From positions 1,480,451-1,544,450 of the forward strand of contig LN890280.1 in NCBI GenBank assembly GCA_900065925.1: a stretch of DNA of 64,000 bases, written 5' to 3'. The notes under the pieces are model-generated. The model was given only the letters and a program-made list of their open reading frames with translations, did no database searches and was not told the DNA's origin. The position numbers and the translations under genes were made by a program. The stretch is from Nitrosotalea devaniterrae. GTDB lineage: Archaea; Thermoproteota; Nitrososphaeria; Nitrososphaerales; Nitrosopumilaceae. Positions 30,700 through 37,943 of the stretch are shown one piece after another (positions within the stretch are counted from its first letter, which is position 1; every line of letters starts with the position of its first letter).

Positions 30700-31047
30700 T
30701 TAGACAAGAGATTTGTCCATTTCCTGAGTAACTAATTCTTGTACTTTGAGAAAATACAATCTAGTGGTATATGGCATGTCATCAAGATTATTTGCTATGG
30801 CCATCATCAGATAGCGAACTGCTCGTTTTGATATATTGAGGTTAAATTTCAGATAAAGAATGGGATCTTGCTTTACACCAATTTTATCCACAAGCCACGG
30901 TGGTGCCATCTCTTTTGCTTCTTCAATCACTTTATTGTACCAGAGTGCTATATTTTCAGGATCTAGACCTTCTTTTAGACCCGTAATGTCAGACGACATT
31001 TTGCTAAACATCCTATCTGTTAATTCTTTCAATAACTTACAAGACAT
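30700..31047 (-). CDS. Hypothetical helical protein (115 aa)
   Basis: No family is recognised. It appears all-helical, with amphipathic segments CKLLKELTDRMFSKMSSD, LWYNKVIEEAKEMAPPWLVDKIGVKQDP and RAVRYLMMAIANNLDDMPYTTRLYFLKVQELV. It converges with the 93-aa gene, with 2 bp between stops. Confidence 0.6.
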   Translation of the reverse strand: MSCKLLKELTDRMFSKMSSDITGLKEGLDPENIALWYNKVIEEAKEMAPPWLVDKIGVKQDPILYLKFNLNISKRAVRYLMMAIANNLDDMPYTTRLYFLKVQELVTQEMDKSLV

Positions 31048-31091
31048 TTTAGAGTTTTAGGTGACCCACTCAAAGATTGAAAAGTTATTTG

Positions 31092-31559
31092 TCAACTAAG
31101 TATATTGCCATCAGCATCAATCTCAGATTTCTTGATTCGCGTAGTAGAAATGCGCGTACCATCCCTGGCAAGAGCCATAGGAACTACAATCACTTGAACT
31201 GGAGGAGAGTTTCTTTCTGCTCTCAGACGGTTGAGTTCATTGCCTTTTGATGAGGTCTCCTCACTTACTACCAATGCTTCAACTTCTTTTTCTAATACAG
31301 CCGGACCAAAGTCATTGTCAAGTTTGCTTATTTCATATACAGAGTTTGGAAAATTTACTTCAATAGCATTTTCTAACATTTCATATCTTTTTGAATAATC
31401 ATGATCAGGCTTTTTTCCTTTTTTTCTTGCAAGCTCATCACTAGTCAAACCTATGATAACCTTGGATGAAATTGAGAATCCATTTTGCAATAACTCTAGA
31501 TGACCTTTATGAATAATATCAAATGTACCGCCCAAAGCCACAAGTTTGAATCTAGTCAT
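31092..31559 (-). CDS. coaD: Phosphopantetheine adenylyltransferase (archaeal PPAT)
   Basis: This 155-residue nucleotidyltransferase transfers AMP to 4'-phosphopantetheine in CoA synthesis. It has GGTFDIIHKGHLELL (HxGH), SVIIGLTSDELARKK-like spacing after the first strand, VSEETSSKGNELNRLR and the closing DGTRISTTRIKKSEID (ISSTRI type). This is the archaeal/eukaryal branch, distinct from bacterial CoaD. It follows the exported protein gene on the same strand by 27 bp. Confidence 0.93.
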   Translation of the reverse strand: MTRFKLVALGGTFDIIHKGHLELLQNGFSISSKVIIGLTSDELARKKGKKPDHDYSKRYEMLENAIEVNFPNSVYEISKLDNDFGPAVLEKEVEALVVSEETSSKGNELNRLRAERNSPPVQVIVVPMALARDGTRISTTRIKKSEIDADGNILS

Positions 31560-31586
31560 GATAGATATCGTATATTCAGGGTTTTA

Positions 31587-32609
31587 TCATTTAACAAGTA
31601 CTACATTAATTGATGGTACTGCAGAAGATAGAGGAACTCCATCATAATTCCACACATACGTTTCAACAAAATATGAACCTGCTGAATTAGGTACCCAGTT
31701 TACAGACATGTTTTGATCTCCAGGTCCAAGAAATACTCCTTCGTATTGTCCTATGAATTCAACTTGTCCACTAAATTGTTTGACTTGAACATAATAGATG
31801 AATGACTGGGTAGAATTACCAAGATAATTTGTATCACTAGTTATCTTTACTGATGCATTTACTGGTATAGTAGAATACGAAGTACCATTAGGATCAGTAA
31901 GCATCGTACCTCTTACAATTACTGGTAGCGTAGCTTGAAGTCCCTTTACAGGAATTAATTTTGACTGATAATTATCAGACTCGGCAATTAGCATGTAGGA
32001 TTTTGCTCTAGGACTTGAGTCTGAAGTGACACTGAATTGAGAGTCTTTTCCAGAATCAATGTTAATTGGATCAGATATTCCAATAGCAACTATTCTTTGA
32101 AATGCATCATATGAAATTAGATAGATCTTTGTATTGGCAGATTTTAGTGCTCCATTATCTGTAATAGTACCAGATACAGATACTTTGTCAGAGACTTGAA
32201 GAGGACCAGAAGAAATGTCCAGCACTTGTTGCCTGTCAGAGGATGACTGGAATCCTGCAATTTTTACTTGAATTTGTGTGATAGAGGGATCAGATTTTGT
32301 AGAAGATATCATAAAAGGAGCCTTTCCCCCAGGCGGAATTACCTGAATAAGTGTTGTACCTGTTTTGTATTCTACCTGATTGGAATTATCATCCATGAAT
32401 GTAACTCCAAGTGTAACTGCATTTACAGGAGAATTGAGATTATTTTGGACTTCACCAAACACTACGGTAGTACCGTCACTTGCTTTGTGAGAATATATTG
32501 TTTGAAGTGTTGTCACACCAAGACTTGTTGGAGATGGAAGATCAGCCCAGACAATATTTGTTGTAAATAGCATAACAATCAACAAACTAGAAAATAACAA
32601 GGTCTTCAT
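31587..32609 (-). CDS. Secreted beta-sandwich protein (340 aa)
   Basis: A signal peptide (KTLLFSSLLIVMLFTTNIVWA, cleavage near residue 22) precedes an almost entirely beta chain that looks like three tandem Ig/FN3/CARDB-type domains: TTLQTIYSHKASDGTTVVFGEVQNN, then VSVSGTITDNGALKSANTKIYLISYDAF, then ASVKITSDTNYLGNSTQSFIYYVQVKQF. The last part GSYFVETYVWNYDGVPLS is typical of thaumarchaeal surface proteins. It probably acts at the cell surface; no enzymatic motif is seen. Confidence 0.7.
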   Translation of the reverse strand: MKTLLFSSLLIVMLFTTNIVWADLPSPTSLGVTTLQTIYSHKASDGTTVVFGEVQNNLNSPVNAVTLGVTFMDDNSNQVEYKTGTTLIQVIPPGGKAPFMISSTKSDPSITQIQVKIAGFQSSSDRQQVLDISSGPLQVSDKVSVSGTITDNGALKSANTKIYLISYDAFQRIVAIGISDPINIDSGKDSQFSVTSDSSPRAKSYMLIAESDNYQSKLIPVKGLQATLPVIVRGTMLTDPNGTSYSTIPVNASVKITSDTNYLGNSTQSFIYYVQVKQFSGQVEFIGQYEGVFLGPGDQNMSVNWVPNSAGSYFVETYVWNYDGVPLSSAVPSINVVLVK

Positions 32610-32743
32610 ATTGATTATAGTTCTAAAAGGAGATTAATCATATACTGCATATCATAATCTAAACAACATAGTTTAGAAGGTTCTACTAAACTTACGTTGG
32701 ATAACATAATCATAAAAAGAAGATAAAAGATGTTTTTGGTTAT

Positions 32744-32845
32744 TTACTTGTGTTTCTTTGCGGTAATTACACACCAGTAAATGAATCCTGGTATCAATCC
32801 TACCATCAATGGTATGTATACGCCCGCTTGACTCCAATCTTGCAT
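32744..32845 (-). CDS. 33-residue membrane peptide
   Basis: The ATG at 32845 opens 33 codons to TAA. The peptide is MQDWSQAGVY, a hydrophobic helix IPLMVGLIPGFIYWCVIT and a basic end AKKHK, a single-span small membrane protein with a positive cytoplasmic tail. It lies next to the accessory island but on its housekeeping side. Similar peptides often associate with respiratory or transport complexes; the partner is unknown. Confidence 0.55.
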   Translation of the reverse strand: MQDWSQAGVYIPLMVGLIPGFIYWCVITAKKHK

Positions 32846-32852
32846 ATCTAAA

Positions 32853-33119
32853 TTACCTAATCACCAAAAAACTTACATAGTATTTAAATCCATCTTTCAG
32901 AGGTTCTGGGGAGTCTTCGTCGGGTCGATCTGAGCGGAAAAAGTCGTCGGATTGGACTGATCGGTGTTTAAGAGGATAGTATTTCATTCCATCTCCTAAC
33001 CAAATAACACCGTCAATAACCCAATAATCTTCTACTTTTAGACACTCATGGGTATCTTTTTCCTCAGAAATTAATCCTAGTTTACAATTAGGACACTTAC
33101 TTAGATTTACTCTTGACAT
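32853..33119 (-). CDS. Hypothetical zinc-knuckle protein of the accessory island (88 aa)
   Basis: The N-terminus has CPNCKLGLISEEKDTHEC, a CxxC plus later His/Cys zinc site. The rest is acidic with an RSDRPDEDSPEP loop and aromatic strands. No family is recognised. Its start lies inside the end of the 183-aa gene (23-bp overlap), marking it as the third gene of one polycistron. Confidence 0.6.
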   Translation of the reverse strand: MSRVNLSKCPNCKLGLISEEKDTHECLKVEDYWVIDGVIWLGDGMKYYPLKHRSVQSDDFFRSDRPDEDSPEPLKDGFKYYVSFLVIR

Positions 33120-33648
33120 TCCTTTCTTTTCTCACAGTTGGTTTTTTCTCATACTTTCTTACGATTTCACGAAGTTCATCTTCATGCTCAAATATTATTT
33201 TTATAAGTAAATCATTGTACACTTTTTCCCCCTCTTTTGTAAGTTGAGTTGACATGTCTACAAGTATGTTGTTTTTGAGATGATCAAACTCTGCTTTAGT
33301 GAGAGATAATTTAGATATTGTACTATCTTTAGATAGAGTATTCATTGGATCTAATCCTGTCAAAAATCCATCTTTACCTTTCATCAAAGTGTAAGCAGGA
33401 TAAAGCTCTAATCCTTGTTCTATTTCATTCATTAATTTTCTTAACGCTTCCCTTGAAAATCTAATATCAGCAAGTATCTCTCTTCTTTTTGGAGCAATCG
33501 CAGTTTTACCATCCTTTTCTAGTCTAGGAAATACACGAGTTTGATAAAAAATTAATGATATGAAATCTTCTAGAAAATGACAATAAGCTCCATCTGCTAC
33601 TACCGTTGGAAAATTCTCAAAAATTTCCTCATTACCATCTGGAATCAT
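33097..33648 (-). CDS. Hypothetical helical protein of the accessory island (183 aa)
   Basis: No family is recognised. It is helical throughout (DGAYCHFLEDFISLIFYQTRVFPRLEK is a short aromatic-rich start, followed by REALRKLMNEIEQGL and a long charged C-terminal helix) and ends with a very basic tail NVKSKSK. It overlaps the zinc-ribbon gene upstream by 4 bp and the zinc-knuckle gene downstream by 23 bp. Confidence 0.6.
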   Translation of the reverse strand: MIPDGNEEIFENFPTVVADGAYCHFLEDFISLIFYQTRVFPRLEKDGKTAIAPKRREILADIRFSREALRKLMNEIEQGLELYPAYTLMKGKDGFLTGLDPMNTLSKDSTISKLSLTKAEFDHLKNNILVDMSTQLTKEGEKVYNDLLIKIIFEHEDELREIVRKYEKKPTVRKERNVKSKSK

Positions 33649-33827
33649 TTGATTTTAGATCCTTTAATTTTTGGATTTTTTATTTTATTGGTCATGCCTG
33701 TCTTTTCTGTTTTATTCCAATATGGTGATTTACACCCTGCACATCTGAGAGGTTTATCATTACTTCTTGATAACCATTCATGATCACATACGTCACATTT
33801 CCATACTGTTTTTGTTCCTATTCCCAT
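33645..33827 (-). CDS. Zinc-ribbon protein of the accessory island (60 aa)
   Basis: ATG 33827 (MGIGTKTVWKCDVC) is preferred over an upstream in-frame start at 33881, because that extension is made of the promoter region itself. The zinc ribbon consists of CDVCDHEW and CAGCKSPYW, a rubredoxin-like or transcription-factor-like knuckle pair. A basic tail follows. It is the first gene of a three-gene minus-strand operon, divergent from the transposase, and a plausible DNA-binding regulator of the shared operator. Confidence 0.68.
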   Translation of the reverse strand: MGIGTKTVWKCDVCDHEWLSRSNDKPLRCAGCKSPYWNKTEKTGMTNKIKNPKIKGSKIK

Positions 33828-33833
33828 TACTAT

Positions 33834-33893
33834 TAGTGTACACCAACAGTATATAAGTTTATATACACATATAGTGTACACTGATAGTGTATG
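33834..33893. promoter_or_regulatory. Symmetric bidirectional promoter/operator of the island
   Basis: The order is TAGTGTACAC (33834-33843), five bases, the palindrome GTATATAAGTTTATATAC (33849-33866), five bases, TAGTGTACAC (33872-33881), then a partial copy TAGTGTATG ending in the transposase ATG. The palindrome offers a TATA box on each strand, about 26-35 bp from both starts. Each GTGTACAC is itself palindromic and sits near a transcription start, as a repressor site would. Confidence 0.7.
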
Positions 33894-35018
33894 ACAGACA
33901 TAAACAAACGAGAAGAAAAAGGAAAAGAGATCGCAAACATGAACCTAATCAAAAAGATTGATGATCACAGTTACAAAGTAAAATCACAAACAAGCAACCA
34001 AGAATATGATGTAATCTCACTAGAATCTGGATGGGTTTGCTCTTGCCCTGACAGCATGTATCGAAACGTCAAATGCAAGCATGTTTACGCATTAGAGACA
34101 AGCATTTCATTTAAGAAAGAAGTTCAGGCACGAAAAACAGTCATTATCGAACCAATCTCAACTTCAAACTGCATTTACTGTAAATCTGATAGAATCGTCA
34201 AGGATGGTCTAAGACACAACAAGTACGGAGACATTCAGAAATTCAATTGCAAGGAATGTAAGAAGTATTTCACTATCAATATTGGCTTTGAAAAGATGAA
34301 GCATGATCCTAAAGGAATCACAACCGCTATGCAACTTTATTTTTCAGGCGAATCATTAAGGAATACTGCCAAATCCCTCAGGCTTTTAGGCATGGATGTA
34401 TCACACAAGACCGTTTACAACTGGATAAAGAAATACACTGGAATCATGCAGAACTATTCTGAGAAACTAAAACCGCAAGTTTCTGACACATGGCGAGCAG
34501 ATGAAATGTATCTCAAGATTCGTGGCAATATGAAATATCTCTATGCTATGATGGATGATGAAACAAGATTCTTTATTGCTCAAGAAGTAGCTAATACAAA
34601 ATACACACATGATGTCCAAAAGTTATTCCAAGAAGCTAATAGAATCACAGAGAGAAAACCCAAGATCTTCATAACTGATGGTGCTTTTAATTACAAGACA
34701 GCATTCTACAAGGAATATCGAACAAGAGCAGTAAAGGATAGACCAATACATATTAGACATATTCGATTCTGGGGTGACAACAATAATAACAAAATGGAGA
34801 GATTAAACGGTGAAATTAGAGATAGAGAAAAGACTATGCGTGGAATAAAGAAAATGGACACCCCAATATTGAAAGGCTATCAGGTTTATCACAATTACTT
34901 TAGAACTCATGAGGGATTAGACGGTAAGACTCCTGCACAAGCTTGTGGAATAGAGATTCAAGGAGAGAATAAGTGGTTAACTTTTATTCAAAATGCTAGT
35001 AAGAGTGACTCTAAATGA
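33891..35018 (+). CDS. SWIM-finger DDE transposase (IS6-like catalytic domain)
   Basis: This 375-residue protein has a SWIM zinc finger at about residues 45-65 (VCSCPDS then VKCKHVY), a second zinc ribbon at about 92-125 (CIYCKSDR and CKECKKYF), an HTH region (TAKSLRLLGMDVSHKTVYNWIKKY) and an IS6/IS240-type catalytic domain with D204 (WRADEMYLK), D263 (FITDGAF) and E303 (NNKMERLNGEIRDREK). The triad is complete, so it could be active. I find no obvious terminal inverted repeats bounding this gene alone. The SWIM fusion is reported in archaeal transposases. Confidence 0.83.
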   Translation: MTDINKREEKGKEIANMNLIKKIDDHSYKVKSQTSNQEYDVISLESGWVCSCPDSMYRNVKCKHVYALETSISFKKEVQARKTVIIEPISTSNCIYCKSDRIVKDGLRHNKYGDIQKFNCKECKKYFTINIGFEKMKHDPKGITTAMQLYFSGESLRNTAKSLRLLGMDVSHKTVYNWIKKYTGIMQNYSEKLKPQVSDTWRADEMYLKIRGNMKYLYAMMDDETRFFIAQEVANTKYTHDVQKLFQEANRITERKPKIFITDGAFNYKTAFYKEYRTRAVKDRPIHIRHIRFWGDNNNNKMERLNGEIRDREKTMRGIKKMDTPILKGYQVYHNYFRTHEGLDGKTPAQACGIEIQGENKWLTFIQNASKSDSK

Positions 35019-35023
35019 GTATT

Positions 35024-35620
35024 TTAGAAAGGCATAACAAAAGAAGCGAGTTTATCAATCATTATTCTGTCTTTGTAAGATTTCTCATAATTATTTTTGC
35101 AATCCTTGCATACTCCCTCAAACGCTTTTGTTTTTAGAACTATATTCTGTGTAAACTTCTCAAAAGATATTTTGAATTCATTATGTAGTCTGTTAGATTC
35201 TAGTTTTTGTTCTTGTGAAGCTGGTTCTCTTGATGTTCTGATTTGCCGATCAATATTTATCATCGATACCATATTAGTTAAAACTTCATCATATCCTGTA
35301 AACAAATGTTGTAAAAATTGTTCTTTAAAAGCAAATAGATCAAAGAACGATTCAAATGGAGAACCAGAACGTTGAACCGCACTTCTATCAAATGCCATAC
35401 TGAATTGTTTGAATAAATTCTCACAGTGTTCTAGGTATGTTTGTCTGGCAATTACTTTCTCCTTCTGTGACCTATCATAGAGCCATTTGAAAAAACCAGT
35501 TGGTATACTAATCACGATTAGTATACCGCCTAATGCAATCAGTAATGATACCCATGGATTTCCTACAAATGTTTGAATAAAAGTTGTAATAGGATCTGTC
35601 ATATTTCCACTCATTTCCAA
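35024..35620 (-). CDS. Membrane-anchored hypothetical protein of the island (198 aa)
   Basis: One strong transmembrane helix (WVSLLIALGGILIVISIPTGFF, residues about 23-44) precedes a basic stop-transfer and a cytoplasmic helical domain of about 140 residues ending with CKDCKNNYEKSYKD. The start could be ATG 35620 or the internal MTDPITTF at 35602. It resembles single-pass helical proteins seen in defence and phage-related islands, but I cannot name a family. It converges with the transposase, 5 bp apart. Confidence 0.6.
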   Translation of the reverse strand: MEMSGNMTDPITTFIQTFVGNPWVSLLIALGGILIVISIPTGFFKWLYDRSQKEKVIARQTYLEHCENLFKQFSMAFDRSAVQRSGSPFESFFDLFAFKEQFLQHLFTGYDEVLTNMVSMINIDRQIRTSREPASQEQKLESNRLHNEFKISFEKFTQNIVLKTKAFEGVCKDCKNNYEKSYKDRIMIDKLASFVMPF

Positions 35621-35627
35621 GATCCGA

Positions 35628-35778
35628 GATCGTTCCTATGGTTATAAAATAACTGAAATGTGTGCAGATCACTAACAATTCTGATCGCTACTCCTTACCC
35701 GACGAAAATTTACAGGCATAGACGCCCGACGGAGAGGTACCAGAACCCTTTCAGACTGCCAGATTTGGGCAGATCGCT
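35628..35778. repeat. GATCGCT-type short repeats in a GC-rich spacer
   Basis: Short direct repeats occur at 35628 (GATCGTTCC), 35667 (GCAGATCACT begins 35664), 35683 (GATCGCTACTCC) and 35772 (GATCGCTGGCTCC). CCCGACG is repeated near 35698 and 35726, and CTGCC/GGCAG forms a hairpin around 35756-35772. The spacer (35621-35814) is GC-rich for this genome and lies at the right edge of the accessory island. Confidence 0.4.
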
Positions 35779-35814
35779 GGCTCCTAAATGAATTAAAGGT
35801 TCTTTAAATAAAAC

Positions 35815-36207
35815 TTGAGCGCGATTTGTAATCAAGATTTGGAAATAATAATTGAACCATGGAATCAACTTGTCATTCACGAAGTATTAGAATTAAGATT
35901 TGAGGACTGGATAACTCAGATAATTGCAAGTGCAAGGTCTGCAGGAGGTGGAATACCCACTATCTTTTGGGCCGGAGGAGTATCATTTCATTTTGCAACC
36001 TTTCCAGATACAGATACAATAGTACAAGAGAAACTCAAAGGCAGAATTCACTATTCATCGGTCACATTTGCCATAAAAGAAAAATTTGAAAAACAAATCA
36101 CACGGGAAAGTGGAGCTGTCAATTTTACAGACGTAAGCCATAATGAAATATTTAGCAAATTAACAGAAAAATTGAGATCACAGTCAAAGTTTCAAAACGG
36201 TCACTGA
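35815..36207 (+). CDS. Hypothetical protein (about 130 aa)
   Basis: No family is recognised. It is a soluble alpha/beta protein with EIIIEPWNQLVIHEVLELRF, a glycine-rich loop SARSAGGGIPTIFWAGGVSFHFATFPDTDT and a helical end. The start is uncertain: TTG 35815 or TTG 35839. The TATA box TTTAAATA at 35801-35808 would place transcription near 35830, which favours the second. It overlaps the convergent membrane peptide gene by 7 bp. Confidence 0.6.
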   Translation: MSAICNQDLEIIIEPWNQLVIHEVLELRFEDWITQIIASARSAGGGIPTIFWAGGVSFHFATFPDTDTIVQEKLKGRIHYSSVTFAIKEKFEKQITRESGAVNFTDVSHNEIFSKLTEKLRSQSKFQNGH

Positions 36208-36368
36208 GTTTTTCGAGATTTACGGAAAACCAAGAACCCACCTACCACTATAAGTGCAATACCTCCTATGAAGTAAGGAGAAGGATAAGGTGCAATGGGA
36301 AATAGAAAAATTCCAGCTGTAATCATTCCAAGATAAACAAGCATCGTTTGATCGATATCAAATACCAT
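36201..36368 (-). CDS. Two-helix membrane protein (55 aa)
   Basis: The ATG at 36368 opens 55 codons to TGA. There are two hydrophobic helices: MLVYLGMITAGIFLFPIA and YFIGGIALIVVGGFLVF, followed by a basic end RKSRKTQ. It is a small integral membrane protein of unknown role. It lies 69 bp after the glycosyltransferase stop on the same strand. Confidence 0.6.
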   Translation of the reverse strand: MVFDIDQTMLVYLGMITAGIFLFPIAPYPSPYFIGGIALIVVGGFLVFRKSRKTQ

Positions 36369-36437
36369 CAAGGGTTACTCTTTTTTTCCATACTATAAAG
36401 AATTCTAATGATGTACTTTTGAGATAATTACTTGAGG

Positions 36438-37943
36438 TTAGTTTCTTTCGCGTATCTCAACTTCACTTCCTTCATAATTTGCAGCCATGTTTGTAAATGG
36501 GTATTTTCCTAGATCTTCATCTAAGACTCCGCCTTTGAATTTTTTAACACTAACTGTGTTATTGTATACATCCTGAAGTTGTTTTCCTGCGTCAATATTT
36601 GCTTGAAGATGAAGATCTGATACTAGAAGGACATGATCAGTAAGCAGGGGATAAAACAATACGTATCGATAGTCTGGTAAGACATCAGTCATGTGGTATA
36701 CGTATTTGAATATCCATGAATACACCGCACTTGAGACAATTGTGGTATTTTTCTCATCATATGGAGCATCGCTGTTATGGACATTTTGAAGAACATATGC
36801 TACAGCATCAAACTGGGCAGAAACATTTGAGGTAATCAGAAAAGAGGTCATGACCAGTCCAAATATTCCAACACATGATATGATGATAAATGGGAGTTTA
36901 TTCCTGATGTCTTCTTTTGCATGTTTAGATAGATCAATTATGAATTTAGCAGCTGCAATGCAGAGAACTGGAAGAACTGGAATCCAGTAAAAGTACTGTA
37001 CATATCCAATAGTAGCAAGAAATACTAGGAATGGAATAAACCACAATAAGATCATCCAGTCTTTTTTAATAGCAGCACAAACTATTCCAGCAAACCCCAA
37101 TACCAATAGAAGAGGATCAAAAACAAGAAAGTTCTTCAGTATGTTTCCAAAGTTGTTGTTTTGGCGATGGACTTGATACAAAACATCTCCAATCCAAGTA
37201 TGAAATTGATTATTTTGTATACTTTGAATGGGCCAAATCAATGGTATCAAGATAACAGGAATAAACCACACTGCAAGCATTCTAGGATTCTTTGTATTCT
37301 GATATATCAGAACGGTAAGCAATGGAATCATTACAAACATGGTCTCTTTTGTAAAAAGAGAAACTCCAAAGAAAATTCCAGAAAATATTACAAGTAATTT
37401 TTTATTTTTAGAATCTTTTGCATAAACAGCAAAGAGTATGGATGTCAACAAAAATGGAAGCAAAATTGAATCTAACAGTATTCTTCTTGTAAGCCAGGTA
37501 ATTGGCATGACTGCAAATAGAATAGACGCAAATAATGCAATATTTTTTGAATAGCGTCTCTCTGAAATTTTGTATATCAGAAAAGTGTCAGCAACTGCAA
37601 GTATTCCCATTAATACACGTGGAACAAGATACAACATCTCTGCAGAATGCACATCCGCAGTGGGATGGAGTGAATTTGGATATCCCACAAGGGCAAATGC
37701 TCCTGCCAAAAAGATTTGGCCAAAGAAAGGATGATCATGAAAATAACCGGTTTGCAGACCTTCTCCAGCAAGTACATGCATGGCTCTGTACATGTAAATT
37801 CCCTCATCATAGAAGACATCAGGAAATCCCACCGGATTCCAGATATGAGTAAATGCAGACAAGGCTAGTGGAATAAGCAATAAGAGAATTGATGCATGCT
37901 TGACTTTCATAGAAAAAGATCTTACCATATTTTTTGAACCCAC
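36438..37943 (-). CDS. Membrane glycosyltransferase (GT-C, PMT/ArnT-like)
   Basis: This 501-residue protein has about eleven hydrophobic segments and the GT-C acidic loop DVFYDEGIYMYRA after the first helix. GTs of this class use polyprenyl-phosphate sugars on the outer face of the membrane; here it may modify S-layer proteins or lipids. HDHPFFGQIFLAG in the first loop and RRILLDSILLPFLLTSILFA further on match the ArnT/PMT_2 pattern. The start is uncertain among M1, M6 and the internal MKVKHASILLLL. Confidence 0.8.
   Translation of the reverse strand: MGSKNMVRSFSMKVKHASILLLLIPLALSAFTHIWNPVGFPDVFYDEGIYMYRAMHVLAGEGLQTGYFHDHPFFGQIFLAGAFALVGYPNSLHPTADVHSAEMLYLVPRVLMGILAVADTFLIYKISERRYSKNIALFASILFAVMPITWLTRRILLDSILLPFLLTSILFAVYAKDSKNKKLLVIFSGIFFGVSLFTKETMFVMIPLLTVLIYQNTKNPRMLAVWFIPVILIPLIWPIQSIQNNQFHTWIGDVLYQVHRQNNNFGNILKNFLVFDPLLLVLGFAGIVCAAIKKDWMILLWFIPFLVFLATIGYVQYFYWIPVLPVLCIAAAKFIIDLSKHAKEDIRNKLPFIIISCVGIFGLVMTSFLITSNVSAQFDAVAYVLQNVHNSDAPYDEKNTTIVSSAVYSWIFKYVYHMTDVLPDYRYVLFYPLLTDHVLLVSDLHLQANIDAGKQLQDVYNNTVSVKKFKGGVLDEDLGKYPFTNMAANYEGSEVEIRERN

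Follow-up and report, generated by a model that had tools for sequence, protein, structure and literature searches.

We find that the control region between a transposase gene and a divergently read zinc-ribbon gene belongs to a family of archaeal transposons in which repeated palindromes in front of the transposase go with the class of the neighboring small regulator gene, and in which regulator and palindromes are exchanged between elements. The ends of the elements, the repeated palindromes, their link to regulator class and the exchange were all established by computation. We favor the reading, to which we give a probability of roughly 0.6, that the region is an autoregulating repressor/operator cassette, carried by the transposon and swapped between elements in the manner of phage immunity regions.

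The transposon and its control region

The window (the whole stretch of DNA analyzed, 64,000 nt from Nitrosotalea devaniterrae) contains a transposon of 2,846 bp at 32902–35747, with the ends GGTTCTGG and CCAGAACC, terminal inverted repeats that agree at 18 of 25 positions, and a perfect 8-bp target-site duplication (TSD), CTTTCAGA, at 32894–32901 on the left and 35748–35755 on the right. The 375-aa transposase is encoded on the plus strand (33891–35018) and combines a SWIM zinc finger (PF04434, 20.0 bits) with an IS6/IS240-type DDE domain (DDE_Tnp_IS240, PF13610, 55.5 bits with a cut-off of 27), besides a weak IS1-type zinc-binding stretch. It scores 117.2 bits with the NCBIfam equivalog transpos_IS6, under the cut-off of 125, and 13.6 bits with the Mutator superfamily model PF00872, under the cut-off of 21, and the Tn3 transposase model is absent among the profile matches of the window proteins. 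Next to the transposase gene stand, in this order, the control region and three minus-strand reading frames: the 60-aa zinc-ribbon protein with its CxxC...CxxC pattern (33645–33827), which we propose to be an autoregulating repressor, a 183-aa ORF without convincing family (33097–33648) that overlaps the zinc-ribbon stop by 4 nt, and an 88-aa ORF (32853–33119) that has a 51% relative in one related element, L057. A further ORF of 198 aa inside the element (35024–35620, minus strand) matches no family above cut-off. The 3′-end of the 88-aa ORF crosses the left transposon end into the flank, and with this exception the whole unit is inside the transposon. Since the inverted repeats and the perfect duplication bound the element, the switch lies inside a mobile unit, and because they also enclose the regulator, we rejected the view of it as a host gene of the flank. 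A single copy of CTTTCAGA is found at the uninterrupted site in several congener loci (e.g., L146 and L147), and the junction of the two flanks was aligned in 25 of the 29 congener loci compared. One of these 25, L149 (G002), carries at the insertion site of the window element a left-end-like stretch, some 50 bp in the aligned segment, which is probably the remnant of another insertion at the same promoter.

The zinc-ribbon protein has 60 aa when counted from its ATG, and a longer reading is possible from a GTG at 33881. Nine relatives, with 13 invariant columns, are found at the same place in other elements, and the predicted model is zinc-ribbon-like (pLDDT 75–83 in the middle blocks, mean 66.8). 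A fold search gave no match at E ≤ 0.001; its weak top matches were MCM zinc-bearing domains and also RNA polymerase small subunits for the zinc ribbon, and AbrB (E 1.6) for a regulator of the class that we call PKWKK. A search of solved structures by sequence found no relative for the regulators. PADLOC gave no match, the transposase was the sole match to PHROGs, an Rfam scan of 31000–37000 returned one match, below its gathering score, and a search of viral contigs led nowhere. The nearest named records were Thaumarchaeota MAGs. Many partial transposase matches, mainly C-terminal (about residues 283–373), are present in the genus (G000:C1:288439–288615, 493274–493498 and 1439179–1439286, and other genomes), and N-terminal partial matches were few among the matches listed.

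A preliminary description of the control region (33834–33893) had drawn attention to an 18-bp palindrome with TATA boxes in both directions and to identical 10-bp boxes five bases from each of its sides, and both are indeed present. The palindrome, GTATATAA-GT-TTATATAC at 33849–33866, has 8-nt arms that are 100% complementary around a non-palindromic centre of 2 nt, and makes up the presumed back-to-back TATA boxes, GTATATAAGTTTATATAC, for which the distance to both ATGs suggests a promoter role. As the TATA arms end about 23–26 nt from the ATGs of the transposase and the zinc-ribbon gene, both mRNAs are probably leaderless. The 10-mer TAGTGTACAC stands at 33834–33843 and 33872–33881; a search for it elsewhere in the genome, as the preliminary description had proposed, returned these two occurrences in 1,805,304 bp, with two also for the reversed control pattern. 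Its core, GTGTACAC, is not enriched (15 sites genome-wide vs. 29 for the reversed control), and was therefore rejected as the box of a genome-wide regulon.

The two TAGTGTACAC boxes are direct copies, and the larger structure is an inverted repeat of 27 nt, 33829–33855 against 33862–33888, 78% complementary and centered at 33858.5. Read as TACACT-N3-AGTGTA, the region holds four sites, starting at 33826, 33839, 33864, and 33877, with 3, 2, 1, and 0 mismatches, respectively. With up to 2 mismatches this consensus, which was derived from the same region, occurs within the 64-kb window only at 33839, 33864, and 33877. With up to 1 mismatch it occurs at 4 places genome-wide, vs. 8 for the reversed control, and the control region holds two of the 4, namely the sole exact one and one with a single mismatch. 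We consider that TAGTGTACAC is probably the seam of two overlapping sites of this type and not itself the operator unit, and that the region is better described as a 27-nt inverted repeat of four sites in two overlapping pairs, with a pitch of 13 bp, mirrored around back-to-back promoters. The candidate operator pair of the zinc-ribbon promoter (33826–33853) would then consist of the sites 33826–33840 and 33839–33853, with the box at 33834–33843 as their seam, and that of the transposase promoter (33864–33891) of the sites 33864–33878 and 33877–33891, with the box at 33872–33881 as theirs. The switch between transposase and zinc-ribbon gene that had been postulated is thus borne out in part: palindromes are common at this place in the family and follow the regulator gene, but the 10-bp boxes are probably seams rather than the operator unit. 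Nor did the expected conservation of the boxes in other copies hold: among 93 copies, the window's own is the sole one with GTGTACAC ahead of the transposase. We explain this by exchange of the regulator/operator module rather than by the switch being absent.

Regulator classes and their spacers

The search for related elements covered 37 genomes of the genus, of which 34 had matches, 250 genomes of the family, of which at least 71 had matches at E ≤ 1e-40, and 6 further loci. Once duplicates and L101, which is without a start codon, had been dropped, this gave 93 distinct transposase copies with a readable N-terminus among the matches listed. Paired ends and a duplication were found for 38 of the 93, with an exact TSD in 36, where cross-genome end-pairing decoys average 0.13; the related elements are about 1.9–4.6 kb long and their inverted ends mostly begin with GG. 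Divergent regulator starts were sought at 35–150 bp from the transposase, and a small divergent gene was found in 87 of the 93 copies, 58–144 bp away, with a product of 40–85 aa in 85 of the 87. L126, counted among the six copies without a regulator, has a gene of YLYF type 218 bp away.

The regulators include ribbon-helix-helix, AbrB/MazE-like, zinc-ribbon and other kinds. In the classes, which were set by our own patterns with six copies reassigned by hand, PKWKK has 20 members, RHH_MAMKK 19, zinc ribbon 10, RHH_W 10, YLYF 7, KLQKQ 6, LRATIP 5, VGNS 4, RHH_GRID 4, and other 2. When ten representatives were compared with Pfam, 2 scored above cut-off (KLQKQ with MazE, PF04014, and RHH_MAMKK with RHH_1), seven others had below-cut-off matches to MazE, RHH-type, zinc-ribbon or arm-binding models, and the PKWKK representative had no match, so that DNA binding by the regulators is partly our own reading. 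In 33 of the 87 copies the regulator is not closely followed by a second ORF of 60 aa or more, and the second ORFs of the other copies are varied. DNA methyltransferase matches were found in 4 of 5 scanned genes behind the regulator (L118, L130, L047, and L054), one of which also matches a restriction endonuclease model.

Compared with 100 dinucleotide shuffles each, 54 of the 87 spacers have direct repeats and 40 have inverted repeats at p ≤ 0.05. For the 80 bp before the transposase (n = 87) the fractions were 57.5% (direct) and 47.1% (inverted), whereas in a sample of 160 from the 211 regions upstream of other ORFs they were 8.1 and 9.4%. Some repeated spacer palindromes are typical of a class: AGGTACCT is found with KLQKQ, and CCACGTGG, CTACGTAG or ACGTACGT with PKWKK. 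Among the 3,570 pairs formed by 85 copies, spacer similarity over shuffle was +9.99 for pairs of the same regulator class (509 pairs) vs. +0.23 for pairs of different class (3,061 pairs), and it was +0.11 in the 198 different-class pairs whose transposases share 65% identity or more. Class by class, the similarity was significant for KLQKQ, PKWKK, RHH_MAMKK, and zinc ribbon (P ≤ 0.001; zinc ribbon P = 0.001) and for RHH_W (P = 0.034), and not for four of the nine classes (P = 0.13–0.48). Within classes it climbs with transposase identity, from +3.4 to +21.1, and this rise, together with the sharing of classes among similar transposases and the clustering of labels described below, indicates that part of the link between spacer and regulator is joint descent. 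The window spacer bears a weak resemblance to the other zinc-ribbon spacers (best score 20.3 vs. 14–17 for shuffles), and TACACT-N3-AGTGTA with fewer than 3 mismatches is found in none of these nine, so that the case is weaker for the window copy itself. CTANTAG was tried as a zinc-ribbon-specific core and rejected, as it is common to other regulator classes: with up to 1 mismatch in the last 45 bp, it is present in 8/10 zinc-ribbon, 8/10 RHH_W, 14/19 RHH_MAMKK, and 6/6 KLQKQ copies.

Covariation between a regulator residue and the operator was seen in the PKWKK class; the window copy belongs to the zinc-ribbon class. Each PKWKK operator was labelled by its best hexamer palindrome, by a rule that makes no use of the protein, and 17 of the 20 regulators received a label. 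The key column is found two residues before the conserved proline of this AbrB-like class, where S accompanies TACGTA (5 copies) and I accompanies CTTAAG (1). Copies with Y have CACGTG (5) or, in weak form, CAATTG (2), and the 4 with R have CGTACG, which in three of them contains a nested TACGTA of nearly equal score. Given the label, the residue is determined (MI/H 1.00 for the column, z = 8.1, p = 0.001 in 1,000 permutations, statistics that ignore kinship), and given the residue so is the label, Y excepted. There are further columns at p = 0.001, with smaller z, as is to be expected among related proteins. L196, which has the residue R, also contains CAATTG, and PKWKK relatives in which YCY or YSY precedes the proline (L133, L137, L186, L191, L200, L206, and L210) tend toward CAATTG rather than CACGTG in the spacer.

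The code was used for prediction in 40 further loci, first 20 close and then 20 distant ones. Among the 15 close loci that could be tested, having a coded residue, the predicted hexamer was found in 8 (one of which, L174, is nearly a known copy), another strong palindrome in 1, and none or a weak other one in 6. The fit is 8 of 9 for close loci with a strong palindrome, given a score limit of 2 that was set after seeing the result and with T counted together with S. Two close loci with a new residue, N, have CACGTG. Of the 20 distant loci, in which 17 rows have a residue belonging to the code, none gave a clear fit and one gave a tie. We regard the residue code as local to the close PKWKK family, where this covariation between sequences argues that the small protein reads the palindrome.

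Exchange of regulators and choice of target

On a quick transposase tree of 80 rows, the regulator classes require a minimum of 44 changes, where the least possible is 8 and shuffled labels need 52.9 on average. None of 200 shuffled draws was as low as 44, and the clustering is mainly that of RHH_MAMKK and PKWKK; the zinc-ribbon class requires 10 changes for its 10 rows. All three pairs of transposases that are at least 90% identical (91–92%) differ in regulator class (window/L057, L087/L125, and L054/L055). The class is shared by 54% of 35 pairs at 80–90% transposase identity, by 34% of 93 pairs at 70–80%, and by 12–13% below 60%. The regulator and its operators thus form a cassette that is exchangeable between elements with related transposases. 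This suggests that related elements carry swappable pairs of protein and DNA site, every copy having its own lock and key.

The copy whose transposase is 92% identical to that of the window has another regulator and other spacer repeats. Between the window element and L057, DNA similarity starts at the transposase start codon, and upstream of it resumes only within the left end; the flanks of the two are 99% identical over 144 bp and the transposase genes 87% identical. Exchange of the cassette in place at shared sites (L005/L057 and L085/L122) was considered and given up, because these elements have perfect TSDs of their own, which differ between genomes. Given these distinct duplications, and flanks that are 99% identical beside a transposase gene that is 87% identical, it is more likely that elements inserted repeatedly at the same promoter. 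In one genome both G025:C2 and G025:C4 match the left flank of the window element (99 and 92%), and contig C2 (L057) may derive from another strain. Avoidance of equal regulator classes within genomes was looked for and not found (9 of 51 pairs vs. 7.3 expected, with one genome per species).

For many elements the insertion point lies about 5 nt upstream of a TATA box of the host, in either orientation. Scored with the archaeal TATA consensus, and taking the better of the two sides, 19 of 38 elements have a TATA-like box (score at least 9) that starts at an offset of exactly 5 nt from the duplication, vs. 2 of 286 single control windows. With repeated targets grouped, a box at 5 nt is present in 10 of 28 cases, and in 9 of the 28 a box of this kind is absent out to 30 nt. 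The targeted promoter points away from the element, often toward a core-like gene; among the target genes are two that we take to encode RadA and ribosomal protein L12 (offset 7). For the window insertion, the TATA box precedes a 33-codon ORF read leftward, and the flank matches 31 of 37 genus genomes. The promoter of the RadA-like gene is a hot spot, occupied in several species by elements with differing transposases and regulators (L083 in G212, L085, L086, L087, L093, L122, L094, and L110), and L083 has three elements in tandem at one radA promoter.

Proposed mechanism, alternatives and known systems

In the mechanism that we propose, two archaeal promoters stand back to back at 33849–33866 and would yield a transposase mRNA rightward and a zinc-ribbon mRNA leftward, both starting at or within a few bases of the ATGs and each start being surrounded by an overlapping operator pair. 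The zinc-ribbon protein, probably as a dimer, would bind the operators and block both starts, and would in this way limit its own level and keep the transposase low. A new copy entering a cell free of the repressor could transpose until the repressor accumulates, and swapped cassettes would place each element in a specificity class of its own, much like the immunity regions of phages. There are indications of DNA binding by the PKWKK regulators; for the zinc ribbon it is presumed, and that the effect would be repression rather than activation we infer from the position of the operators. The purpose of the exchange could, as a hypothesis, be escape from resident repressors, although the simplest within-genome prediction of this idea failed. 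Lambdoid phage immunity regions contain a repressor and its own operators at two divergent promoters, and are swapped as a block between related elements. The likeness extends to the promoters, the operators and the block exchange, whereas here we are dealing with transposons of about 1.9–4.6 kb and with single small genes for regulators of several unrelated kinds, for which immunity is hypothetical.

The small protein could alternatively activate, e.g., by recruiting TFB or RNA polymerase. Zinc ribbons are found in basal transcription factors, and some sites extend over the TATA boxes besides the starts; but the best site, 33877–33891, extends across the presumed start to the first ATG base, and a protein bound there should prevent initiation, so that we consider activation unlikely. 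We similarly doubt that the sites bind the transposase itself, through its SWIM or zinc-binding N-terminal part and in the way of resolvase at res in Tn3, with the small gene as cargo. The transposase does carry both a SWIM finger and a weak IS1-type zinc-binding stretch, the exact site of the window is absent from the other zinc-ribbon copies, and Tn3 resolvase regulates itself at res (PMC7157771), but the spacer repeats track regulator class and not transposase similarity across classes, and the PKWKK regulator residue tracks the operator.

If instead the zinc-ribbon and 183-aa genes were a toxin-antitoxin pair, the operators would autoregulate the pair and the transposase would be co-regulated by proximity. 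Such a pair would be in line with the 4-nt overlap of the two genes, with the match of some regulator classes to antitoxin-type families (MazE PF04014 and RHH_1), with a HicB-like antitoxin gene behind the regulator of L107 (26.7 bits, cut-off 27), and with the toxin-antitoxin pairs of many families that reside in Tn3 transposons (PMC7157771). However, the 33 of 87 copies without a close second ORF of at least 60 aa, the variety of the others, which include DNA methyltransferases, and the profile searches, in which the 183-aa protein matched no toxin family, make it improbable in our view. That the palindromes are chance products of A+T-rich promoter DNA is, for the family, hardly credible: TATA-rich DNA does yield many weak palindromes, and 8–9% of control upstream regions reach p ≤ 0.05, but the excess over controls is five- to seven-fold, the class-linked sequences have G+C cores, and residue and operator covary. 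Beyond the autoregulating repressor/operator cassette that we favor, a wider reading, which we offer tentatively and at somewhat less than even odds, is that a large archaeal transposon family selects sites just upstream of the TATA boxes of its hosts, where it may recognize the TBP/TFB-promoter complex, and that its members swap whole repressor-operator cassettes, unrelated in fold, and so escape mutual control. The members would then be heteroimmune transposons, with a DNA code readable from single residues.

IS6 elements duplicate 8 bp of their target. The elements described here resemble IS6-type archaeal insertion sequences in the PF13610 DDE domain, in inverted ends mostly beginning with GG and in 8-bp duplications, and the window element, whose terminal repeat starts with GG (GGTTCTGG) and which has the 8-bp duplication CTTTCAGA on both sides, fits this family. 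They differ in the SWIM N-terminus, the passenger genes, the divergent regulator and a score below the NCBIfam IS6 cut-off; besides its transposase the window element has four further ORFs in or across its ends, where an IS6 element would be expected to have transposition genes only. For comparison of the ends we used the IS6 ends given in PMC6807381 and PMC7986276, of which the former proposes archaeal IS6-like elements as separate from IS6/IS26 and the latter names one passenger-bearing member of IS6. Krupovic et al. 2019 (PMC6563490), in their section on insertion sequences, give counts of the IS families of Thaumarchaeota and leave regulators unmentioned.

The nearest parallels are the toxin-antitoxin pairs of Tn3 and the sigma-A promoter targeting of TnGBS. 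Tn3 transposons, too, have several times acquired small genes for DNA-binding proteins from several families (RHH_6, AbrB/MazE, and others), which stand near the transposition promoters (PMC7157771). There, 39 of 190 transposons carry them, as antitoxin-toxin pairs (PMC7157771), whereas here 87 of 93 copies have a gene divergent from the transposase, mostly without a recognized toxin among the genes looked at. The Mutator-like elements TnGBS, ISLre2, and ISKra4 insert 15–17 bp upstream of sigma-A promoters (PMC3942029), likewise at a fixed distance upstream of promoters, but their transposases belong to another superfamily, and the target here is an archaeal TATA box, about 5 nt away and in either orientation. 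Our literature search found no description of regulator exchange, of TATA targeting, or of their combination.

Self-limiting control is central to the persistence of transposons. As dozens of natural regulator-operator pairs stand in the same promoter slot beside related transposases, it can be asked directly whether transposons, like phages and plasmids, fall into incompatibility classes. In the AbrB-like class there is furthermore a natural series that links one residue to one operator, and targeting of the DNA upstream of archaeal promoters would offer a simple system in which to test for recruitment by basal transcription factors.
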